NCBI GenBank assembly: GCA_021292105.1
Contig: CM037874.1
Span: forward strand, 57,824,539-57,888,538
DNA length: 64,000 nt
Source: Anadara kagoshimensis
Lineage: Eukaryota; Mollusca; Bivalvia; Arcoida; Arcidae
Direction of reading: 5' to 3'
Position numbers and translations under genes: made by a program. This document shows positions 14,608-50,700 of the stretch, in pieces; positions within the stretch are counted from its first letter, which is position 1, and each line of letters opens with the position of its first letter. Under the pieces are notes generated by a model that worked only from the letters and a program-made list of their open reading frames with translations, was not told where the DNA came from and ran no database searches.

Positions 14608-16870
14608 CGCGCGCGTTACCATGTTAAATACAACTTTTAGTAATAAGCAAACATCAATGACCTGTTCGCTTGACCTTTCATTAGGAATATTCATATACTT
14701 AGGATGGTCCACCAGGAAATTGTATCGTCGTTAATACATAAACAACGTCTTAGTACACTGTTTCCCGTGATACAGACAAAATGATCATCCGTGTACCCTG
14801 TATATAAATGAACTGGTCCAAAATGTTTTTTTAGGTCAATCGGACAGGTCAATTTTGTTTGACTTCTTTTGCAAATACAATGGTTATATTTGTATTTTAA
14901 TAAGGTAAAAAACCCTGACGGACATGATTGATTACAAAGAAGTTAAATGTTAAATGTTTAACATCTAATAATAGGTGTCGCCGAACTAAGATACAGTGAT
15001 TACAATGTAGGCAAACAACATTGACCTGTCCGTTTGACCTTTAATTCAAATATTTATCACGGACAATTTCATCAATATATAGGGAACACAGGTTTTCATT
15101 TTGTCTATGTCATGGATAAACCTGCATTGACTGTGTATTCACTGCCAATCACGACACTACCTTTACACTGGGTGGATCCTAATGTTGTTCCTTATGAAAG
15201 GTCAAACGGACAGGTCATTACCTATTTAGTTGAAGGGTTGCAATTAAGCATACTTCACGCATGGGGGACTGAAGTGTCAACAACAATCGTTTCATGACAA
15301 GGGTATTCATGTACGTGATCTAGAGTGGAGTAATGATGTTTTACCCCTCAGTGAAAGTTAATCACTTATATCGAGACAGTCAGTTCATAAATGACAGAGG
15401 TAATCAAAGTGCCTGAGAACATAATCTACCTTCGGCTAGCGAACTAACACATTTCTCGTACTAGGATCTGTCCCGAGTGGATTCGAACCTTTAATTTGTA
15501 GTGATAGGTAGTGTGATCCGTAAATGCGCATTTTAGACCATCTGGCCACAAAGGCCCCTACAAGGGTATACATTTTTATGCACTGCGGTTTTCAACATTA
15601 GGAGTTGTGATTTTTGCTCTAGACCCAAATTATGGATATTTTTCATGGATTTTCGTAGTTCCGTTGCGTCTTTGTCTGCAAATTACGGAGAATCTATTTC
15701 CATTTGTTGATTCATGTATTTATTTATTCATTTATTTATTTATTTATTTATTTATTTCTTGGAATTTTGAAGTTACTCGTGCCTTAGTATTCTGCCATTT
15801 ATTTCAGGTTTAACAACTACTTATATAAATTCACCCTATTCACACGACACTAATATTTCTGGAATTCTTCCGAAGATACCAATGTCGCTAAAATTTCCGG
15901 ATTTTCTCCGGAGTCACCAATGTCACAATATATAGAAATTACAGACAATTTCCATGCCATTATCCAAAATACAACTCGTTCAGTTTTTTTTTTACATCAA
16001 AACTCTCTCTCTCTCTCTCTCCGCTTTCCCTATTTTTAAGCATGCATTAAGACCCTAAACCCCCTTTTTAATACCCTGATATGTACAACTCTCTCTCTCT
16101 CTCTCTCTCTCCCCCCCCCGCTTTCCCTATTTTAGGCATGCATTAAGACCCCCCTCTCTCTCTCTATTTTTTTATACATGCACTAAGACCCTAAAGCTCC
16201 ATTTTTAAGACGCTGACTCTCTCTCCTAAATTATACACATACTTCAAATTATCAAGATAATTAATATTTTCCACTTACTTTCCAAGGACTGAAATATTTC
16301 ATCAGGATGTAAAATCCACCAATTCATCTTATCGGAAACATAAATTATTCGGAATAATAATGTCAAAATAAAAACTACCCAGTGGGTATTCTCTGGAAAT
16401 ATATTTTCAGAATGTGTACCATCATCTATTGATGTGTCGCTACACTGTTCTGTTTTATCACAACTCTTACTGCTCTCATGATCATTGTCACTATTACGGG
16501 ACTGTATCCTTTTTGAAGTTGATCTCGGCATCGAATCTTCGTCAGTTTTTGTCGATCCCTCGTGAGTTTTTGTTGATTCCTCGTGAGTTTTTGTAGATCT
16601 TTCGCGAGTTTTTGTCGATCCCTCGTTAGTTTTTGTAGACCTTTCGTGAGTTTTTGTCGATTCCTTGTGAGTTTTTGTCAAATCCTCGTTAGTTGTTGTC
16701 GACCCCTCGCGATATTTTGTCGATTCCTCGTTATATTTTGTCGACTCGTCGTTAGTTTTTGTCGACCCTTCGCGATGCTTTGTATCATCCTTAGTTTGTT
16801 TCCCGTTTGTTTCAGAATTTTTAATCTGTCCATTTTGTTTTTCAACATTTTTCGAATTCTTCCGTTTCAT
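2666..16870 (-). CDS. PIGZ: GPI mannosyltransferase 4-like (PIG-Z/SMP3, GT22 family), 3 exons, 937 aa
   Basis: Predicted ER multi-pass glycosyltransferase that would add the fourth, side-branch mannose to GPI anchor precursors from dolichol-phosphate-mannose. Exons on the minus strand are 16870-16279, 8661-8450 and 4675-2666; junctions are GTAAGT/TTTCAG and GTAAGA/TTACAG, and the phases fit (1, then 0). Seen: a first membrane span at about residues 164-181 followed by the GT22 luminal motif HPDEIFQSLE (about 188-197); in exon 2 an LRSFMFP block matching the RS..FP block of the family; in exon 3 the GTHTFINSF block equivalent to the 'TRTxSN' segment, then several hydrophobic spans. The first ATG is at 16870 and an in-frame TAA lies just upstream. 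It is much longer than human PIGZ (about 580 aa) because of a Ser/Thr-rich N-terminus and a charged insertion in exon 3. PIG-B or another GT22 member is the alternative. Confidence 0.78.
5700..5910 (-). mobile_element. LINE 3' fragment (minus strand)
   Basis: On the minus strand the sequence reads as the C-terminal tail typical of LINE reverse-transcriptase polyproteins: an RRGKKKIGRPKETW-like basic block, then RTIEKEHKELGYNSWTEA and an EKWRELDSPHG-like segment, with frame breaks. It lies in intron 2 of the PIG-Z-like gene. Confidence 0.65.
6050..6480 (-). mobile_element. Penelope-like element 3' fragment, third copy
   Basis: Homologous to 1-440: same terminal sequence (cacgtgtgtaatcaaaatt), the same 'aagcaggagaagcaggtata' block and the YDKRDD-encoding region. 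It adds a terminal block at 6050-6107 (ending in 'gtgaggccgggta' on the plus strand) that also occurs inverted at 18108-18190. Confidence 0.65.
7285..7800. repeat. Dispersed repeat with direct duplication (period about 312 bp)
   Basis: Two related segments, 7285-7480 and 7597-7795, share blocks such as 'atggcccttt' and 'gaaacttggt(a/g)caaagcatca'. Similar 'gtccgtccg'-containing sequence recurs at 59800-59950, so this is decayed dispersed repeat rather than gene. The rest of 6480-8449 shows no feature. Confidence 0.55.
8450..8661 (-). CDS. PIGZ: PIG-Z-like gene, exon 2
   Basis: 212 nt between acceptor TAATTTCAG and donor GTAAGA. It completes an ATT codon split with exon 1 and then encodes 70 residues, with an SLRSFMFP block and a hydrophobic segment (IFTIIGKAAIFFGW). 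Found by translating across the junction; it bridges the HPDE exon and the C-terminal exon in the order expected for GT22 proteins. Confidence 0.8.
9101..9478 (+). mobile_element. tRNA-derived SINE, full copy with 15-bp TSD
   Basis: Starts with a tRNA-like head: A box 'gtggcctaatggataaga', B box 'gagttcgagtcccgctc'. It ends in 'gacgttaagcaacattc' and a short (aacc)n tail. The direct repeat cattctttaataaga flanks it at 9086-9100 and 9479-9493. A second copy lies at 26988. It is not a functional tRNA gene, since the sequence continues as a 380-bp SINE body. Confidence 0.88.
9500..10250 (+). mobile_element. Mariner-type transposase fossil, interrupted
   Basis: Translation fragments fit a mariner transposase: near 9515 FSSKIKYHAVIRSW with a KEIQRELAHVY segment, near 9680 ARFGRV, and near 10065 SHPAYSPDLAPSNLFL, the block containing a catalytic Asp in mariners. 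Stops and frameshifts are present. The copy is split by an inserted element at about 9776-10026. Confidence 0.7.
9776..10026. mobile_element. Short inverted-repeat insertion inside mariner fossil
   Basis: Left end 'ggcggatccagaatttttaa' followed by a G run; right end 'cccttaaatccgccactgg' is roughly its inverse. It encloses a (TC)n tract at about 9932-9969. Likely a non-autonomous DNA element. Confidence 0.5.
10671..10991. repeat. Tandem duplication, two copies of about 161 bp
   Basis: 10671-10830 and 10832-10991 are nearly identical, each starting 'tggtcgaaaa' and ending in 'gacctggtaagttgaccttt'. The unit ends in the terminal repeat of the MITE family described at 15007, so the duplication involves a MITE end. 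Confidence 0.85.
11307..11522. mobile_element. MITE family 1 copy (GACCTGTCC-type TIR)
   Basis: Left end 'caaacaacactgacctgtcc', right end 'aaaggtcaagcggagaggtc'. It is followed to 11651 by a second right half, with an internal poly(A) run at 11590-11614 and another right terminus (aagcggacaggtcaaagatg), so two copies are nested or overlapped here. Confidence 0.75.
12465..12860. repeat. Degenerate tandem repeat, about 60-bp unit
   Basis: Repeats of 'cttatatcgagatgttacca' followed by 'gccttgtatgcaggtg' variants, five to six copies. The core motif also occurs in the 3' half of SINE family B. The surrounding 11652-12464 holds no gene I can support. Confidence 0.6.
12870..13086 (+). mobile_element. 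SINE family B 3' part followed by (CAAT)n
   Basis: Carries the family blocks 'gtagtgactgttctttcgcc' and 'gatataagtgaaatattctt'. The tail has expanded into a (caat)n microsatellite at about 13023-13086. Confidence 0.7.
13470..13522. repeat. (CT)n microsatellite
   Basis: About 26 CT units. Confidence 0.95.
13744..13794. repeat. (AAAT)n microsatellite
   Basis: About 12 tetranucleotide units. Confidence 0.95.
13820..14470. repeat. 30-bp minisatellite
   Basis: Unit of the type 'gatgcgacgtaaaccagggg' plus 'aagcaatcta', most regular at 13880-14160, then decaying. The 80-residue minus-strand open frame across it is periodic (LLSLVYVASR) and is a by-product of the repeat. Confidence 0.85.
14551..14604. 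repeat. (AC)n microsatellite
   Basis: About 27 AC units immediately upstream of a MITE family 1 copy. Confidence 0.95.
14647..14865. mobile_element. MITE family 1 copy
   Basis: Left terminus 'caatgacctgttcgcttgac', right terminus 'ggtcaatcggacaggtcaat'; internal 'aggatggtccacc' block shared with other copies. Confidence 0.75.
15007..15226. mobile_element. MITE family 1 copy, best preserved ends
   Basis: Left end 'aggcaaacaacattgacctg' plus 'tccgtttgacctttaa'; right end 'aaaggtcaaacggacaggtc' is the inverse of the left. About 220 bp, no coding capacity. Other copies at 11307, 14647, 19574, 33681 and 43621 define the family. Confidence 0.8.
15345..15560 (-). mobile_element. tRNA-derived SINE, minus strand
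   Basis: On the minus strand a tRNA-like head is visible: 'ttgtggccagatggtctaaa' (A-box region) and 'aggttcgaatccactcggga' (B box), followed by a body ending in the 'cttatatcgagac' motif. Confidence 0.65.
15718..15757. repeat. (TTTA)n microsatellite
   Basis: About nine tetranucleotide units. The stretch 15990-16230 also holds several short (CT)n tracts within a roughly duplicated segment containing 'gctttccctattttaagcat'. Confidence 0.9.
16279..16870 (-). CDS. PIGZ: PIG-Z-like gene, exon 1
   Basis: 592 nt, ends in phase 1 at a GTAAGT donor (16278-16273). It encodes about 160 residues of low-complexity Lys/Ser/Thr/Glu sequence, with a degenerate heptad-like repeat (variants of STKTHEE) over about residues 33-107, then a membrane span and the HPDE motif. 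The codon at 16876 is GTG; the first ATG is 16870. Confidence 0.8.
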
Positions 16871-16876
16871 GTTCAC

Positions 16877-17700
16877 TGATTATCAATTGTAACGTCTCAC
16901 TTGTTTCGCAGCTTCTGTGTGTAGTATGTACACATGTATAAATAAATACCTCGCACTGAAAAGTCATCCACAAAACATTGTAATCAATAATTGTGTTGTG
17001 TACCACAGCGTAAACAGTACAAAACTGACAGGATAAAATTACAATTTATTACAACTTAATGAAAACCCAACACTGGTAGCATATAAACAATATAATAAAA
17101 CGTTTATTGCCTTTGTCGATTTAATTTAAATATTTAAAAGCCTCCGTTGGCTAGAAAACGTTTGTGTTTATCGGTTTTATTATTAGTTCAAACTTACATA
17201 GGTATTCACAGAAGTCAATTTGATTAAGTGTTTACTGTTTTTCGTTTTTAATCCAGGCCTTTTCAACTTGATAATAAAGTTTTAAATATCGTAAAAGAAA
17301 AGTCATTACACAGTTTGCTGATTTCACGAGAGATGGCGCTGATAAACCAGGTGAAACGAACATCTTGACAAGTTTGACCTGGACATTTCAACCCTAAAAT
17401 AAAATACCGAAAATAGTCTCAACTGTATTAAGGATGTATTTATTTTTAACCCATTCAACTTTATATTATTTAAGAGAGATCGTATTTTTAAAGTCAAATG
17501 TACTTTTATAGTGGAAAAACAAAGATTTTTAAAGAATTAGATTTTTTTAAAATTCAGAGTTAACATGTTTGGTTAAACTAGTCGCAGTTATACCTCCCGG
17601 CCATGGTTCAGATGTAATCGCTTCAATGCTGATACTATTTCATTGTTTAAGGTGACATTGTTACAAACTTGGTCATCTATGTTGTATTGTTACATACAAA
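16877..17700. other. Upstream flank of PIG-Z-like gene, nothing recognised
   Basis: AT-rich, no open frame or repeat family identified. It probably contains the promoter and 5' UTR of the minus-strand PIG-Z-like gene, but no specific element can be named. Confidence 0.4.
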
Positions 17701-38175: not shown

Positions 38176-38470
38176 ACCATTGTAATCCCAAATGTTTGTT
38201 GATATCATGGATGCCCGTATAACACATTTCCTTGCCATAACAATTCAAGCTTATGATGACGATGGGATGCCCCTTTCATTGCTGCAGTCCATTATGTTAT
38301 TAAATAACCCATTTCCTTTTCACAGTAATTCCAATTTATGGTGACCTCTGGGTGCCTGTATAACCCATTTCCATTTCACAGTAATTCCAATTTGTGGTGA
38401 CATTCAGATGCCTGTATATCCAAAGATAACATCTCCTCTGTTTCAACAAACTATTTATTTTCCCTGCGGT

Positions 38471-38700
38471 AGATGCAAGTCAGTAGATCTCTAACTTGTC
38501 ACTATTCTATATTCTGTATCTTTGTTGTGATTTCTTTGTCTGTCTGCTGTAGATGTAAGCCGGTAGATCTCTAACTTGTTACTATTCTATATTCTGTATC
38601 TTTGTTGTGATTTCTTTGTCTGTCTGCTGTAGATGTAGGCCAGTAGATCTCTAACTTGTCACTATTCTATATTCCTTATCATTGTTGTGATTTCTTTGTC
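38471..38700 (-). repeat. 80-bp tandem array duplicating the ZSWIM7 C-terminal coding end
   Basis: Copies begin at 38471, 38551 and 38631 (period 80). The third overlaps the last ZSWIM7 exon: on the minus strand it encodes DKEITTMIRNIE and the stop. The other two, in the 3' UTR, would encode DKEITTKIQNIE and a stop. A minus-strand AATAAA at 38459-38454 follows, so the array is inside the transcript. Confidence 0.88.
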
Positions 38701-38766
38701 CGATACATCAAACTCTTTACACTTACACATTGCCTCTGCTAGTCTTATTGCAAGTAAATGTTTACA
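38662..38766 (-). CDS. ZSWIM7: ZSWIM7 exon 7 (CKH and C-terminus)
   Basis: 105 nt after TGTTTCAG; encodes CKHLLAIRLAEAMCKCKEFD and VSDKEITTMIRNIE, then TAG. Supplies the Cys and His that complete the SWIM finger. Confidence 0.93.
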   Translation of the reverse strand, partial: CKHLLAIRLAEAMCKCKEFDVSDKEITTMIRNIE

Positions 38767-41700
38767 CTGAAACAGTAACATAGATACACATTTATAGATT
38801 TAATTAATCTTCAATTATTACATATACTGCAGGGGTCATCACTAACATTTTTGGGTGGATGCTGTAAACTAAAGTCTTTCTTAATCTCAAGTGCCAAATC
38901 AACTAGAACCTGTAAAAGTTTTAAACTGCCATATCTTTTGGTTTATGCCAAGATTATGTTTCAAGGTATATATATATATATATACTATTGTAGATCAATG
39001 TGACCTTGAATGAAGGTCAAGATTGACAAACTTTGAAAAATTGTTATTCCTTTATACTGATGTTAAATATAAAGCTGTGAGACATTTACTTTTGATTCAT
39101 GACAAGCTGTTTAACAACATATTTTCTTCTGAGTGTAACTGTGACCTTGAATGAAGGTCAAGGTCATCAAACTTAACTTAGCCCTTTCATAACCTGACAG
39201 GGTTCGACTCTTACGCTAGTCCATTGTACCTTGGCCAGTAAAAATTTGGCAGGATCAGTGACTGGTCTGACAGACTAGTAGAAATCAGTGCCAACCTGGA
39301 AAGTTTTAGATGCTCAGACATCATCATATAATATTTGGTAGGTTACATAATCATAGTTTTTGTTAGACAGGACACATTTTATAATCTGAAGTTCACTACT
39401 ACCTAGAAATGAAGCTGGGAGCTGGACTGGTTACATTTACTTTGTATATAAGACTTAAAGTTTACAGACAAACTTACCATTAAATGTTCATCTTTCAGTA
39501 AAACTGAAACAGAAAGTTAAAGATTATCAAGATTTCTATCAAAGTACTGAAAGTACTGAAATCCAAAAGCCTGATTTTCAAAACAATGGTTTAACAAGTT
39601 TAACATTAAGACAAAGGAGATATCAAGTTTTGAAGTTTTTTGGGGCTAAAAATATCTGAAAGTGAAAAGAACAGTGTAGTACATTTTTAAATTATCTAGT
39701 GTCTTGATTAAGGCTGTAAAGCGGAAATATTGACCATGAGCTAAATTTATAATGGATTTTCTTCTCAGGGAATAATATTAAGAAAGTAATACTAGTATCT
39801 GTTTATGTTCTCAGACAAAAGCATTTTAAAGCTGACCATCATTTTTCTGAGATTTGCTGCCAATTTACAATTTATACTCACAGAAAATGCATAAACTATG
39901 ACTGGTCAATGAGATAATATGGCAGGAAACAGTATCAGGACCGATTCATGTCTGCGGGGCAGTGAATTGCCACAGACTGTTTACATTTCATTGTTGATTA
40001 TGTCACTGATAACACCAATCAAAAGATGTATCTAGATCTTATAATTTCTTAAATTATAAGATCTAAATAAATTTTTACTGTTTACGCATGAATTTTTAAG
40101 AAATATGCTTCCCTGAAAACTGAAGACATTGTGACGTAAGTGGTATTATCAGTGACGTGATCAACATAGAAATGTGAACAGTGTGTGGTAATTCACTGTC
40201 CTGCACACAAGATGCGGTCCTGATACTGTTTCCTGCCATATGTATCTTATTTCTAATCATGTGGTATGCAACAGTCCAAAATGTTTGAAACAGTTGTTAA
40301 CATTGCCATTGAATGTTCACTGATAGGCAAGGAAACTTACAATAGTCCATTACGGAAACTACTGAGTAAGCCTACTTAATAATATGTCAATATAACACTC
40401 CTTTCTCATTAAGAGAGTGCTCACTCCATAAGTGGGAGGAACTTATGCCAACCCCGGCCGGATCTGACCCAGGACTTTAAAGTGGGTAGTGACTGTTCTT
40501 TTGCCAAGCACTCTGCATTACGAAATGAAAGTCACGGTTCTTTCGGATGGGAACTTAAAATAAACAAGGTCCAGTGTCTTGGTAGGCTTGGCACGCTTTG
40601 TGGGGGGGCTCATTTACCAGGCGCACTATTTCCATGTGTACTCATATCTTATAATTTCATAGCAAAGAAGCTCGATATCTTGGAAGAGAGCGATAGCAAA
40701 GCACGTGTTCACTATCGTGAAATGCTGTACAATAAAAATGTTTTGCACAAAATTTACAGAGTACTGAACATGAGTGGCATAATGGTCAACCATATTCACA
40801 AATGTCCTTGATAACAGTGAAAGGTCAGTGTATTGGACACAATTATAACTTCATGTTTTTGGGGCTTTAGCTTGATGAAATTCAAACAAAATAACACGAT
40901 AGAACCAAACATACTTTCAAGTTATCCATCATATTTCAGCAAAAGGCATTAAAATCATCAAAGTGTTATTGTACAGTCAACCCTGTCTATAAAGGCAACC
41001 CAAGGAAACCAGTAAAAGTGACCTTTATGGACAGGTGGCCTTTATATACAGATTTAATTAATATGAATGAAGAATGATTGGGATATAATTCTATTGGCCT
41101 TTATAAGCAGGTGGCCATTATATAGAAGTGCCCCTTAAGGCAGGTTGGACTGTGGTTAAAATACAGAGTATAGTACCATTATGTAGGAGATTAGTCAAGT
41201 CAGAACGTTCAAATACAGCTACCGCAAGTTGAGTTGAGTAACGGTGTTAAATGTCCCAGTCAATAATATTTCACTTATGCCCAAACATCGCCAGCTATAG
41301 GCAAAGGTGCAAAAATGTTGCCTGTGCGTTGTGCTGATGGCATTATACAGCAGTTTCTTTTTTGTGCAACACCTAAGGTGACACGAGACCTCACTTATTT
41401 AAAGTTCCCATTCGAAAGATCCATGCCCTTCATTTCATAATTTCGTAATGCCAAGTGCTTGGTAAAAGAACTACCCACTACCCACTTTCAAGTCTTGGGT
41501 CAGACCCAGATGGGGCTCCAACCTATGACCTCCCACTTATGGAGCGAGTACTCTACCAACTGATCCCCAGCAAATATAGAGGTAACTTGTCTATTATAGC
41601 CTGGATAGATTGAAGTGAAACAAAGTTTGTCTGTGGAAGGTTCTGAAAAAAGTGAAAAGTGAAATACATGTAATTACAAATGACTGGTTTTGGAGAAAGT

Positions 41701-44700
41701 TTTGAAGAAAATTACCCAAGTACCTATATGATGGACAAAACAGTACAAACTGGTAGTCAGACAGGTATATGGTGTACCAGAGCTTCCCACCACCTGTAAG
41801 ACAAACTTACTGGATGGTACTTACCTGAGTACCTATATGATGGACAAGAACAGTACAAACTGGTAGTCAGACAGGTATATGGTGTACCAGAGCTTCCGAC
41901 CACCTGTAAGACAAACTTACTGGATGGTACTTACCTGAGTACCTGTATGATGGACAAGAACAGTACAAACTGGTAGTTGGATGGTACTTACCTGAGTACC
42001 TGTATGATGGACAAGAACAGTACAAACTGGTAGTCAGACAGGTATATGGTGTACCAGAGCTTCCCACCACCTGTAAGACAAACTTACTGGATGGTACTTA
42101 CCTGAGTACCTATATGATGGACAAGAACAGTACAAACTGGTAGTTGGATGGTACTTACCTGAGTACCTGTATGATGGACAAGAACAGTACAAACTGGTAG
42201 TCAGACAGGTATAGGGTGTACCGGAGCTTCCCACCACCTGTAAGACAAACTTACTGGATGGTACTTACCTGAGTACCTATATGATGGACAAGAACAGTAC
42301 AAACTGGTAGTTGGATGGTACTTACCTGAGTACCTGTATGATGGACAAGAACAGTACAAACTGGTAGTCAGACAGGTATAGGGTGTACCGGAGCTTCCCA
42401 CCACCTGTAAGACAAACTTACTGGATGGTACTTACCTGAGTACCTATATGATGGACAAGAACAGTACAAACTGGTAGTTGGATGGTACTTACCTGAGTAC
42501 CTGTATGATGGACAAGAACAGTACAAACTGGTAGTCAGACAGGTATATGGTGTACCAGAGCTTCCAACCACCTGTAAGACAAACTTACTGGATGGTACTT
42601 ACCTGAGTACCTGTATGATGGACAAGAACAGTACAAACTGGTAGTCAGACAGGTATAGGGTGTACCGGAGCTTCCGACCACCTGTAAGACAAACTTACTG
42701 GATGGTACTTACCTGAGTACCTATATGATGGACAAGAACAGTACAAACTGGTAGTTGGATGGTACTTACCTGAGTACCTGTATGATGGACAAGAACAGTA
42801 CAAACTGGTAGTCAGACAGGTATATGGTGTACCAGAGCTTCCAACCACCTGTAAGACAAACTTACTGGATGGTACTTACCTGAGTACCTGTATGATGGAC
42901 AAGAACAGTACAAACTGGTAGTCAGACAGGTATAGGGTGTACCGGAGCTTCCGACCACCTGTAAGACAAACTTACTGGATGGTACTTACCTGAGTACCTA
43001 TATGATGGACAAGAACAGTACAAACTGGTAGTTGGATGGTACTTACCTGAGTACCTGTATGATGGACAAGAACAGTACAAACTGGTAGTCAGACAGGTAT
43101 AGGGTGTACCGGAGCTTCCCACCACCTGTAAGACAAACTTACTGGATGGTACTTACCTGAGTACCTATATGATGGACAAGAACAGTACAAACTGGTAGTT
43201 GGATGGTACTTACCTGAGTACCTGTATGATGGACAAGAACAGTACAAACTGGTAGTCAGACAGGTATAGGGTGTACCGGAGCTTCCCACCACCTGCAAAT
43301 AACCACATGAATAGGTAAACACAAACATCAGTATAGATAAGACAATAAAATCAAGGTAATGGAGATATATAGGGTATATTTTAAGAAAACGGAACAACAA
43401 AAGTGAAAAAATTGCACTGACCTGGGCTACAGAAGGAAAAAGAAAGAGAGGAAGACCAAGAGAGGCCAGGAGAAGATTAACAGAGAAGAAAAGAAATGAT
43501 ATGGCTGGCCAAGTTTGAGGACTGCACAGATTGATGTTTTAAATAGGATGAAGCGGAGACCTGTGCCTTGCCTTATGCTCCACTAGGAGCAAAGTGGATA
43601 GGTAGGTAGGTGGGTAGGTAGGCAAACAACAATGACCTGTCCATTTGACGTTACATTAGGAATACCTGTATTCATATAAAGGATCCAGCCAATACATTGT
43701 ACATGGGTAGTGTTAGGATTCACAGTTATTTAAAATATATACAAAATGCAAATGACTAGTGTTCACATTATGAAGACAAAATAAGCATGCATGATCTCTA
43801 ATTAATGTATCCGTCCATTTTAAATATTTAAATTAAAGGTGAAACGGACAGGTCAATGTTGTTTGCCTATATCTGGACATGTCCGAGTGGTATATGGGTG
43901 GACATGTTCGAGTGGTATTGTCACTGGCTTCTGAAGTCAAGGGTCTTGGGTTCAAATCTCACTCAGGACTTGCCTAAACTAGAGCTTTAAAAAGCTCATT
44001 ACCAAAATTGTCCTCGGATGAGACTCATAACCAAGGTCCTGTGTCTCAGTGCACGTTAAAGACACCTCTGTAGAGTTCCAAAAAAAAAAGTAGACCACCT
44101 GTGGCCTCTACAGAGAATGCTTACAACTAGAAGCAAATGAAACATGCTGAGCAAGAAGATAAGTTATACCCTGTAATTTATATTTTTAAAGAGCACTTTT
44201 GCCTATACCCTGTAATTTACATTTTTAACGAGCACTTTATTTTTTAATATATACCTGTGATTACAAACCCCCAAACTTAAACATGCTCAAAAAATAAAAG
44301 TTTATAAATTAGTAAATGGTAATAACAATTTCTATATAACTGGATATATCATGTAGATGGCAGTTTGAACATGTTGAAGTCAGTCCATACAGCATTCTGC
44401 TAGTAGACTTGAAAATAAAATTCAGCTTACTAGCCTTTGGAAACATATTAACTAAATATCATGATGAAATGTAAGATTTTCACACAAATTTCAGTCAGGC
44501 TTCAAATTCAATAATCTTTAAGCTTGGAGATGCATGGTACACTGTAACATGATCATTGACATACCTGATACAATATCCACACACTTGGATTGATTAAGAA
44601 AAAATCAACATGTCCCCGTGGTATATTGTCGAATAATACATGGGTCAGAGTTCACATGTGGAAAAATATATCACGAGGTGGCTTTGCCACTGAGTGATAT

Positions 44701-47700
44701 ATTTGCAGCATGTTAATGACTGCCCGTGTAATATTAACATGATTTAGATAAAAAGGATTGAAATAAACATTGCAAAATCTTTCTTCGGATGTACATTTTA
44801 CTATCTATTTGCAAAAAGGTCTATGGAAACAATTCGGCTGTTGAGATTACCTCTATTAAAAAAAAATTATTTATGAATGAAAATTATGTCAACCATTGTT
44901 GGCCACACATAGCATGACATCATAAGATAAGCAAGAGAGTACGTCATTAAAACAGAAAAGCGATGGGTATACCCTTTGTTATAATACGACTGGCTCTCTT
45001 CATGTTTCACATGAAGGAAAACACAAGTCATGTTAAGATAAATAGTTTAAATGGGGTTTACGTCACAGTCAAGAATATTTCATTTATATGGAGATGTCAC
45101 CAGCTATAGGTGAAGTTTTGACCTTTGCAGTGTAATATGCAGGGAGAGTTCTTTCTCAGACCACTCCATCTGTGACATTGGACACCAGTTTTAAGGTCTT
45201 TTAAAGGACCTTATGACTTTCATTTCTAAATGCTGAGTGCTTTAAAAAAGTCACTACCTATTTTCAAGTCATGGTCAGACTCTGCCAGGCTTCCAACCTA
45301 TGACCTCCCACATACAAAACGAGTGGCTATCAAGCTACTGAGCTACCATAGTGGTATACTTGAAGATGTGACACTCATTTACCTGATACACTGTCCGCCC
45401 GCTTGTAGATCTGATCAGAGTTATCTTCTCATTGTCAACCAAATCTAGGGCTGCTAGTAACGGAGTTTGGAACACAAACTGGAGCCTACAAAAGTGTTCA
45501 GACAATACTGTTAAACCTTGTAATTGAATGGCACAATTCAGGCCAAGTTTTTACCCTTTTTGTGTGTAATTCAAGCATGCCAGGCCTTTGTAATTAAATG
45601 GCACAATTCAGGCCAAGTTTTTACTCTTTTTGTGTGTAATTCAAGCATGCCAGGCCCTTGTAATTAAATGGCATAATTCAGGCCAAGTTTTTACCCTTTT
45701 TGTGTGTAATTCAAGCATGCCAGGCCCTGGTCGGAACATTGTGGGCGTAGTCGGCGATCCGTCATTAGGTTTAGGTTGGAATTCCATTCCAGACTAGTGT
45801 GGGAAAGTCTGTCAGTTCATTTGCCAACAGCTGGAGGTAAGTGTAATATAATATAGTGAAAAATTCTTAACTTTGAGGTAAAGCACAATTCACAAAAACA
45901 AACAAATAAAAAAAAATATACATGTACTTACGCAGACAATATTTCATCTGTCACTGTAACACAAATTTAATTTCATTAGTGGCCAATTTTTGTGAAAATA
46001 TAATCATTATTAGAGTATTTTTTACTAATTGTGGAAAATAACTTTTGGGAGCCATGGACTATATCTATATCTCAGCAGTGCATAGGTAAATTTTTTTAAA
46101 GAAATTAGAAGCAGGGATTTTTCTGACCTTTTTGGGAAAAGGACCTTGGGATGAAATTGGGAAAATGCTCAACAAAAATGTAAGTTTTGGAAAAAATCAA
46201 CAAAAAAACAACATATTAGAAATTCTAGACCACTAGAATACTGGTAACTGAACAAATTATATCGGTGTTCACAGAAAAATAGCGCTGTCTCTTTTGTCTC
46301 TATATAAATCATCCAGCAAAATGTGGGTTAATATAGATTGAAATCGTTATCAGAACGAGATATCCTCCGAATATGATGTTGATGATCTTGTTAAAATTTT
46401 TTTCTTAAAAAATTGATAAACATAGCTAATTGGGAATTTTTTACTACAGAATTGGGAAAAATGTATGTTTTTTTTGCATTGGGAATGGGTCCCTTTACCG
46501 GACCCTGTGGATACCCAGAAAAATTCCTGAGAAGCCAATGATAATTTGGCTACAAGGGATGGAAATCAAAGATTTTTAATATATTTATATTATTAATATC
46601 ATCATGACTGTCCTTATCACCGCTGAGATTAAGATATAGCCCATGGATCCTAAAAGTAAGTATGGGCCTCTGAATTGTACACATTTTAGCTATTTATCAC
46701 TATTACAAAGTTACCACTGGGGTAGCTTAGTTAGCAGAGTGCTCCCTCCGTGAGTGGGAAGTCATGGGTTTGAGCCCCGACCGGGTCTGACCCAAGTGGG
46801 TAGTGACTGTTCTTTTGCCAAGCACTTGGCATTACGAAATGAAAGTCAGAGTTCTTTCGGATGGGAACTTAAAATAAACAAGGTACTGTGTCTTGGTAGG
46901 CTTGCCACGATTAAGAACCCTGATGTTTAATGCCATCAGCGAAACCCACAGGCAAAATTTCTGCACCTTTGTTTATAGCTGCAGACATATGGATATAAGT
47001 GAAATATTCTTGACTGAAACGTTAAACACCATTACTCAACTCAACTATTACAAAGTTCTTTTTTTAAGTTAGCTGAGTCCCCAAATCAAAATAGTTAAGG
47101 TTAATCCCTGCTTATGGAAATTTCTGAGAGTAAAGATCGCAGAGCTGCCAACCCTATTTATGTTACTGCGGGTCCGACCAAAATCTGACCGTGTCTGGGT
47201 GCATCCCTACCAAAAGACTTGAAAATTAATAAAAAAAATATGCTGCATTGTCATCATGGTCATGTGATGTCTTAGAGAAATGGATACAATGTAATGCATG
47301 TAGTGATTTTTCACCTGATCCCGGACACAAAATTTATCCACTACAACCTTAGTTCACCCATGTAAATCACTCTAATTAGCCGCGATTACAGATGGATTTG
47401 ATTTATATTGAATAAACATTGCAAATCCTCAAACTCTTTGGTCGTTTGTGGGTCAGTCCCATTCTTGGCAGGTCAGCGGGAATTAAATTTCCAAATGAAG
47501 GTCGGACCTGCGGGTTGCGGGTCAGTTGGCAGCTCTGAGATCTAAAGTGTTTGGTTATGAATCACAGCACCTCTCAACACCTAGATTCTAATCCCACTTG
47601 GGGTTTATTGATGAACAGATATGAAGTACATGTGTGTAATATCAAGGATGACATTTATGTGTGTATCAAGGGTCCGGTAACGGTCATGTCCAACAAAAGT

Positions 47701-50700
47701 TTATTTTGACCGACGTGAAAATTCACCAGTTGGACATTTTTGGTTTTCTGACATTTTCACACTGTGTATCTATATGTTAATGTTTCTGTTGGATAGGGGA
47801 AGAGATATTCAGTTTCAATTTCCAAGAATAACATACTAGTAGTTTTAATGTGTATAAACTTCAATTCAGGTGATTCCATAACTATAATGGAGTGATTCTC
47901 AGTCATGGTGTTTTATGCCTCATTGTCAAGATTTTTTAGCCAATGGGGAAGCTCAACTGGTAGAGTGTCCTCTCTGTATGTGGGATGTCATGGGTTAAAT
48001 CCTGGCCAGCTGATGGCATTATACAGCAGGGTTTTTATCATGCCATGCCTACCACGACACGGGACCTCCTTTATTTTCAGTTGCAATCCAAAAGAACCGT
48101 GAATTTCATTCCTTAATGACGAGTACTTGGTGATGCGGTTCAAACCTCCCATTTACGGAGCAAGCACTCTACTAACTGAGCTACTGCAGTGGTGAAAAAC
48201 TTGAACAGCTGTTGTATGCATTCATCAAAATATGGCAAGAATACCCCCATAACCCCCCCCCCCATTTAAGACCTATTGGTCATACAGCTTAAGTACAAAC
48301 GTACTTACATTTATACTGTTGGTTTTACATACACTAGTGATAACAATATCAATACTCCCATCTATTTAAAATATTGATACGTATTAGTATATCCTCGACC
48401 GTCCGTGATTCGAGACTCTAATAGAAAACCAACTAAATTTGCTTACGCAACAAGAATTTGAGAGCTGAAAATAGACAACTGATTTTTCTGGATAGTTTTA
48501 CAGTAAATACCTAAATTGTGTCTTTAATGCATGAAATTGTCACTGCAGAGACGATACTCGCGTATAATAACTGAAAACAAAAATGGCCTCGAATCTTAGG
48601 ACGCTCTCGATTTTAGGACGGTCGACGATATAGATATATTGTTACAGCCATACTTACATTTACCATTAGTTTTATAAACACTCTCTACTTCTGATATCAA
48701 CTGATCAGCTATGTCCTCTATTGTATCTAGAAAGAAGAAAATAGTGTATAAACTCTTGGGTAAATAAAGATTTTATTTTGATAGAAAAGTTTCATTTTAT
48801 CAAAAACATGCAACTAAGCATTCCATCAAAAAATTAAAAATATTGCTTGACATACAGTAAAACCTAAATTAATTGACTTTGGGTTTTTATTTAGGGGGTA
48901 GGAGGATTAAATTTTGGTGTTATAACAGAATTTGGTGATAAAATGATGGAGGCTTGTAAAGAAACACAAAACAGCATAAGAGAAATTTATTTTGCGACTT
49001 TAAAAATTTTTAGAATTGTGTGACGATAAGCAAGGTGGCGAAGTTATTGAGGGTCATTAATAGCGATTTATATATATATTTAGTGTTGGAAATAACAGCC
49101 AGCCACATGCTCCGCTGAAAAATGTTTATTTCAAACAATGGAATATATCAACTGTCATTTTGCATTTGAAGTCTAAATGCTGCCTAGCTACCATGCCAGA
49201 CAAAAATTTTAAATCTGTATCAACCATGGAAGGATGTTTAACAACAAATATCATTCAATTTAACCTAGTTGTTCTAGAGAATTGGTAAAAAATAAGATCT
49301 TATTGTTCTTGTTCTAACGAGGAATTCATGTTTAATGGTTTTTTTTAATTTTTATTTTTTTTATATAGAAAAATATGATTGGTATACAACTCCTTTACAC
49401 ATATCAAATTTTAACTAAATCTGTACCTAAATAAACCTGTAAACCTTTTTCAGAGCCAACAGACAATCAGTCTGTGTGTGACCTACAAGACTTATGTGGC
49501 CTATATCTGACTGTATATGACCTACATCTGTCTATGTGACCTATATCTGTCTGTATGTGACCTATATCTGTCTGTATGTGACCTATATCTGTCTCTTTGT
49601 GACCTATATGTCTGTATGTGACCTATATCTGTCTGTATGTGACCTATATGTCTGTATGTGACCTATATCTGTCTGTATGTGACCTATATCTGTCTGTATG
49701 TGACCTACATATGACTATTTGACCTACACAACTTTATGTGACCTACATATGACTGGCAACCATTTTTAGAATGAGAAGACAATCACTGGCTGTATGTGGC
49801 CTACATCTGGCTGTGTGACCTACATCTAACTGTATGTGACCTACATTTGACTGTAAACCATTAGAACCAGAGGATAATCACAGGCTGTGTGACCTACACA
49901 TGCCTGTATGTGACCTACTTCTGACTATGTGGCCTACATATGACTATATGTGACCTACATATATATAACTTTGTGACATACATCTGACTGTGTGGCCTAC
50001 ATATGACTGTATTACTTACTTACTTACTTAGGCCTTGAACCCCTGGTGGGGCATAGGCCATCCACAACTGCCCGCCTTGGGTAGTTGTGAATGTTTCTGT
50101 AGCATGTGGGTTTTTTACAGGGTGGGTTGCTAACCCTACGCCCAACCCTCCTCCTTTATCCGGGCTTGGGACCGGCTGTTGTCTCAGAGAGTCCACAGGC
50201 GGAGTTACATATGACTGTATGTGACCTATATATGCCTGTGTGCGACATACATGACAATGTGACCTACATATGCCTGTATGTTACATAATTCATACATGCC
50301 ATATCTCACGCCGTGAGGCAAAACCTCACGGATTTTTGTTTATTTTTGAAACTCCCGGCGTTAGATTGATTTCTCACGGAAAATTGCTATGCCGCCCTTT
50401 ATTTTTTTTCAAAGAAGCTACGCCAATCAGTAGGGATGATTACTGAATAAACATGGTTTGAAGTGTCCAAAGTCGTGTGCAATGTACCGTAGATAATTCC
50501 CTAATCGGCAAGTGGACACGCGTTGTCACCTTCATGGTGTACTTGGTCATTTAATTTAAGATACACGTGTATGGATTTATCATTTGTTATAACAATTACA
50601 CAAATATTGTTCTTTCTTTGTAAAAATTCCAATCACATATCAGGCACCAGAGGAAGAGAGAAACTATCTTTTCTGAACAGGGAATTTTTTGGATGGAAAA

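Follow-up and report, generated by a model that had tools for sequence, protein, structure and literature searches.

Tandem exon duplication is already known, but it is unusual for the exons of such an array to be equivalent and frame-incompatible. The kringle repeats of LPA, for example, form a copy-number-variable exon array in which all copies enter the protein in frame; in the ZSWIM7 array described here, only one can. The mutually exclusive exon clusters of Dscam1, 14-3-3 zeta and MRP, in the portions of PMC9013439 and PMC6071210 that describe them, resemble this array in that their tandem exons are homologous, share one length and phase and have splice sites, and in that the frame allows only one of them. 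Those clusters serve isoform choice, whereas in ZSWIM7 all 18 interior copies specify a single peptide and the spacers measure 31 nt. Use of one exon only is attributed in PMC6071210 to spatial limits, nonsense-mediated decay and competing RNA structures. The internal tandem repeats of human segmental duplications presented in PMC2812944 are likewise number-variable minisatellites that lie within exons or at their edges and alter splicing. As characterized there, their usual effect is an in-frame lengthening of exons or the formation of new introns, whereas the ZSWIM7 array repeats whole exons together with both splice sites and does not stay in frame when two copies are joined. Another bivalve gene, oyster AOX, has a tandemly duplicated exon 10 of which one or the other copy is used. 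On the account given in PMC5589949, however, its copies number two, are 63.5% alike and have functionally diverged, in contrast to the roughly ten near-identical copies in ZSWIM7. For ZSWIM7, a gene to which PMC8684494 assigns a role in human meiosis, no earlier report of such an array was found among the titles and abstract openings listed from an open-access library, in keeping with the earlier note on this DNA, which knew of none. The array is built like a minisatellite and, judged from its sequence, appears to work like a mutually exclusive exon cluster without protein diversification.

Gene model and identity

The window, that is, the whole 64-kb stretch of DNA that was analyzed (C18:57824539-57888538 of a 1.1-Gb assembly), carries the array flanked in order by exons 2, 3, 4, 6 and the last exon of ZSWIM7:

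48658..48726, minus strand: ZSWIM7 exon 2, 69 nt, TIEDIADQLISEVESVYKTNGK; donor AAT/GTAAGT
45932..45953, minus strand: ZSWIM7 exon 3, 22 nt, TDEILSA; acceptor TTACAG, donor TGC/GTAAGT
45383..45485, minus strand: ZSWIM7 exon 4, LQFVFQ...GRTVYQ; donor CAG/GTAAAT
39478..39503, minus strand: ZSWIM7 exon 6, LLKDEHLM; phase 1 entry
38662..38766, minus strand: ZSWIM7 last exon, CKHLLAIRL...MIRNIE and stop; CxH half of the finger

Exon 3 was located from its reading frame and from the family consensus LTDEILSALQ, and four candidates for exon 1, with the start codon, were examined without any of them being convincing. The end of exon 4 at 45383 and the start of exon 6 at 39503 agree with the earlier note, as does the identification of the gene as ZSWIM7 and of the repeated exon as the CxC half of the SWIM finger. 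When the spliced product was compared with proteins, 28 ZSWIM7 matches from mussel, scallop, oyster, chiton and abalone were obtained, the best being a Mytilus ZSWIM7-like protein (E 6.1e-50, 61% identity over 99%), and the gene was assigned on this basis as a ZSWIM7 (SWS1) orthologue. In each ZSWIM7 homologue the array exon aligns with a single conserved stretch, and there is no repeat at that place. The SWIM ligands C-x-C ... C-x-H are present in columns conserved in the alignment, with CSC supplied by any of copies 1-10 and CKH by the last exon. The Pfam SWIM score of the spliced protein is 18 bits, below the curated cut-off of 19.6, and the full-length ZSWIM7 matches are strong. In the AlphaFold model of the Mytilus protein, which is confident (mean pLDDT 91.5), the exon makes up a strand, the CxC and most of a helix. 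Solved structures gave no match at E 0.001 when searched by sequence, and none at that threshold when searched by fold with the Mytilus protein model (267 at E up to 10).

Two other features were observed in the neighborhood of the gene. A GT22 reading frame near ZSWIM7 is 94% identical to a Logan protein and 76% identical to a Tegillarca granosa protein over half its length, with the next matches at ~33%; on these grounds the DNA most likely comes from an ark clam. A match to the Type-P1 twister ribozyme (67.5 bits, cut-off 67.2) lies at 50142-50211 on the minus strand, a little upstream of exon 2.

Organization of the exon 5 array

The earlier note had counted 11 whole and 7 half copies of the exon, here exon 5 of ZSWIM7, and we obtained the same numbers for the tandem array at 43292-41716 on the minus strand, where a whole copy measures 79 nt and a half copy 57 nt:

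41716..43292, minus strand: whole array; whole-copy starts 43292, 43125, 42958, 42848, 42681, 42571, 42404, 42237, 42070, 41903 and 41793, with a 31-nt spacer between units
43214..43292, minus strand: exon 5, copy 1; non-repeated acceptor of its own, TTATTTGCAG, and donor CAG/GTAAGT
43143..43199, minus strand: first of the 7 half copies, 57 nt made up of the exon 3' part, the donor and 14 nt of spacer, without acceptor
starts 43032, 42755, 42478, 42311, 42144 and 41977, minus strand: remaining half copies
41716..41793, minus strand: copy 11, the edge copy, 78 nt; 1-nt deletion (frameshift), TCA to TTG, donor GTAATT

The 31-nt spacer GTAAGTACCATCCAGTAAGTTTGTCTTACAG, with a perfect donor at its start and TTTGTCTTACAG at its end, is identical in 10 of 10 cases ahead of copies 2-11, and every whole copy except the first thus has the repeated acceptor, as had been claimed. 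The acceptor of copy 1 (...GGTTATTTGCAG) is its own, unlike this spacer. A GTAAGT donor had been proposed for all whole copies; CAG/GTAAGT together with an intact exon is found in 10 of the 11, copy 11 having GTAATT. Since copy 11 is frameshifted in addition to having this weak donor, the good whole copies number ten. The earlier figure of up to 11 equivalent exons is therefore one too high, while the description as an array of spliceable-looking copies holds. Copies 1-10 encode VVGSSGTPYTCLTTSLYCSCPSYRYS. The half copies have a donor and lack an acceptor of their own, and their 57 nt make up 19 codons that continue the reading frame of the whole copy upstream. From one whole copy to the next the gap is 31 nt in three cases and 88 nt, with a half copy between, in the other seven.

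The array consists of head-to-tail units of tens of bases, as does a minisatellite or VNTR, and Tandem Repeats Finder independently found it as overlapping rows with periods of 110, 167, 277 and 444. Within the 64-kb window, 17 of 18 minus-strand CAGGTAAGT sites fall inside the array and none occurs on the plus strand, a concentration that shows the array to be no chance pattern. Exact pieces of the unit or exon had no matches in viral and prokaryote collections. Comparison of the outer flanks of the array with the inner spacer revealed no significant homology (shuffle p 0.08 upstream, 0.33 downstream); the array edges have either diverged or fall at exon ends. The spacer also shares 12 bases with the beginning of intron 6 (39477), a match that was discarded at a BLAST E of 0.41.

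Other tandem repeats were observed in the same window:

38464..38700, minus strand: second exon-derived tandem repeat, an 80-nt unit x3 comprising the end of the last ZSWIM7 exon, the stop codon and 3' flank
45516..45728, minus strand: three copies of a 70-nt unit in intron 3, a short distance upstream of exon 4
16537..16772: 11 copies of a 21-nt unit lying within an open frame (STKTHE-like repeat; minus strand, 16244-16879)

A second ZSWIM7 locus and variation among copies

The same assembly contains a second ZSWIM7 locus ~448 kb from the window locus. Its array consists of 9 whole and 3 half copies between outer flanks that match those of the window array, and exons 2, 3, 4, 6 and the last exon are also present. 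The genome search scores the best candidates only: all 16 matches listed for a DNA query of 189 bases of the array, and all 26 listed for the protein query, lie at these two loci in the 1.1-Gb assembly. Among the matches listed, both loci carry exclusively the arrayed form of exon 5; a different CxC exon elsewhere, which the earlier note had named as evidence that would count against its proposal, was sought in the protein search and did not appear among the 26 matches. The length difference that it had suggested looking for between individuals is seen here between two loci of one assembly (11+7 vs 9+3 copies), which are either alleles or paralogues.

The blocks around the two loci (C18:57.345-57.455 Mb and 57.81-57.90 Mb) are near-collinear, mostly at an offset of 442-472 kb. 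When 144 kb was compared with 140 kb, the kept pieces totaled 88,930 columns with 5.1% mismatches, some off-diagonal repeats included. Divergence between the loci is patchy: the 2070 columns of intron 4 contain 6 mismatches plus 17 gap positions, whereas for intron 5 three pieces could be aligned, at 18/981, 31/352 and 13/356 mismatches, and the remainder is unaligned. The second locus fits either an uncollapsed haplotype or a large segmental or tandem duplication with conversion. By our own reading of the alignment, 7 sites differ between the loci in coding exons outside the array, and strong constraint is not seen along the whole gene because 5 of the 7 are nonsynonymous. The repeat derived from the last exon is represented at the second locus by 58 unit seeds over ~5 kb (C18:57415047-57409864). 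Its 3-copy form in the window was considered as a neutral control and dropped because the second locus's coding copy shares one difference.

The 26 encoded residues are the same in all 18 interior copies of the two loci. The interior variable sites are exon positions 6, 15, 24 and 69, and all four are synonymous; five exon types occur inside one array, and C or T at position 6, T at 15 and A at 24 are missing from copy 1. If a random change were synonymous with probability 0.25, the finding that five of five distinct changes are synonymous would have a P of ~0.001. The edge copies of both loci, on the other hand, have the donor GTAATT; the one in the window has a deletion together with two substitutions that fall in a single codon, and the one at the second locus has a change of Y to F. 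Compared with the interior, the edges thus have 3 nonsynonymous changes and a frameshift with 0 private synonymous ones (Fisher P 0.018, from hand-entered counts of few events). Of the 18 spacers at the two loci, 16 are identical, donor and acceptor included. In the second array, the acceptor AG has become AA at the adjacent copies 4 and 5, that is, in 2 of 8 spacers, which is evidence against strong constraint; having lost this AG, these two copies at least need not be used. Because the outer flanks and three of the variable sites (15, 24 and 69) are common to both loci, the array predates their split. Where the earlier note had left a choice between recent expansion and homogenization, homogenization fits, and the array is older than the two loci are as separate entities.

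Reading frame

Exon 5 begins in phase 0 and ends in phase 1, and when 0 to 11 identical whole copies were joined, the normal C-terminus was obtained from 1 copy only. Among contiguous acceptor-to-donor exons, 17 of 103 keep the frame in the window array (10 of 79 nt and 7 of 136 nt) and 10 of 49 are intact at the second locus (7 of 79 nt including the edge copy, and 3 of 136 nt). Pairs of exons are in frame in 17 of 146 cases, every one of which includes the frameshifted copy 11, and triples of minimal exons in 0 of 704. Copy 11 aside, the frame is kept only by one whole copy, alone or with a half copy. These counts suggest that a functional mRNA includes a single whole copy, possibly extended by 19 residues that would place another CxC ahead of the native CxC-to-CxH stretch. 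An intron of 31 nt is generally too short for animal splicing and one of 88 nt is long enough; spacing alone therefore does not prevent double inclusion. Like a mutually exclusive cluster, the array has copies of equal length and phase and a frame that admits one only, with the exception of copy 11 in pairs. Protein differences from which isoforms could arise are not among its properties, the 18 interior copies having one peptide.

Discussion

We consider it likely that this array is an exon-bearing minisatellite (VNTR) in ZSWIM7, variable in copy number and homogenized, from which one copy is spliced into each working mRNA. Exon 5, with the first two zinc ligands (CxC), would have been amplified together with the 31-nt spacer bearing donor and acceptor, and unequal exchange or gene conversion may both keep the copies alike and shift their number. 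Several further minisatellites in the window, one of them from the last ZSWIM7 exon, were counted toward this explanation. Each working mRNA would contain one whole copy, or a whole copy and the following half copy (19 extra residues), and products with no copy or several copies would lose the frame and be degraded. Where spacing is insufficient, decay of frameshifted products probably completes the exclusion of multi-copy mRNAs. Copy 1, first in line and with its own acceptor, is probably the most used. To make the protein, the cell apparently must settle on a single one among many near-identical exons.

How the copies contribute may be read in different ways. One obligatory exon may exist in about ten interchangeable copies that are used more or less randomly, one per transcript, with every used copy under selection (redundant-exon concerted evolution), which we regard as possible but doubtful. 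The uniform interior copies could, however, be homogenized from one functional copy without use of their own, and it is quite possible, if somewhat short of an even chance, that copy 1 alone is the exon and that copies 2-11 are a silent intronic minisatellite whose sequence is kept by conversion from copy 1. Such an arrangement agrees with the non-repeated upstream flank that copy 1 alone has at both loci, with the decay of the edge copies and with the tolerated loss of the acceptor in two adjacent copies of the second locus. An unused spacer need not keep its splice sites, yet donor and acceptor are preserved in all but two of the spacers, although conversion alone could explain this too.

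A regulated choice of the Dscam type, with one copy picked by competing RNA structures, would suit tandem homologous exons with one-only frame logic, but we regard it as extremely improbable. Because all copies code for the same peptide, choice among them would not diversify the protein, and the spacer shows no excess pairing with introns 4 or 5: the energy observed for docking/selector pairing was reached by 29 of 30 and 13 of 30 shuffles, respectively (spacer only, 60-nt pieces, non-exhaustive). An assembly artefact, in the form of excess copies or of a false second locus, is very improbable as well. The blocks are offset on one chromosome as uncollapsed haplotypes would be, and intron 4 is nearly equal between the loci, but the five exon types, the irregular order of whole and half copies and the two different arrays are unlike simple read collapse or stutter. 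Moreover, the window contains no N and the fetched stretches no N runs of 5 or more, and a false second locus would remain a second allele with its own array.

If the copies are interchangeable, the mRNA of one animal would carry more than two exon-5 'alleles', some with a 19-residue insert adding a second CxC. Synonymous variants tag the copies, and plain RNA-seq from one animal can therefore reveal which of them are used. For annotators, an array that is this hard to model as a gene is a warning. It is also a natural test of how the spliceosome chooses one exon among many with the same sites, and it could show whether concerted evolution preserves an obligatory zinc-finger exon in an unstable repeat of a meiotic-recombination gene.
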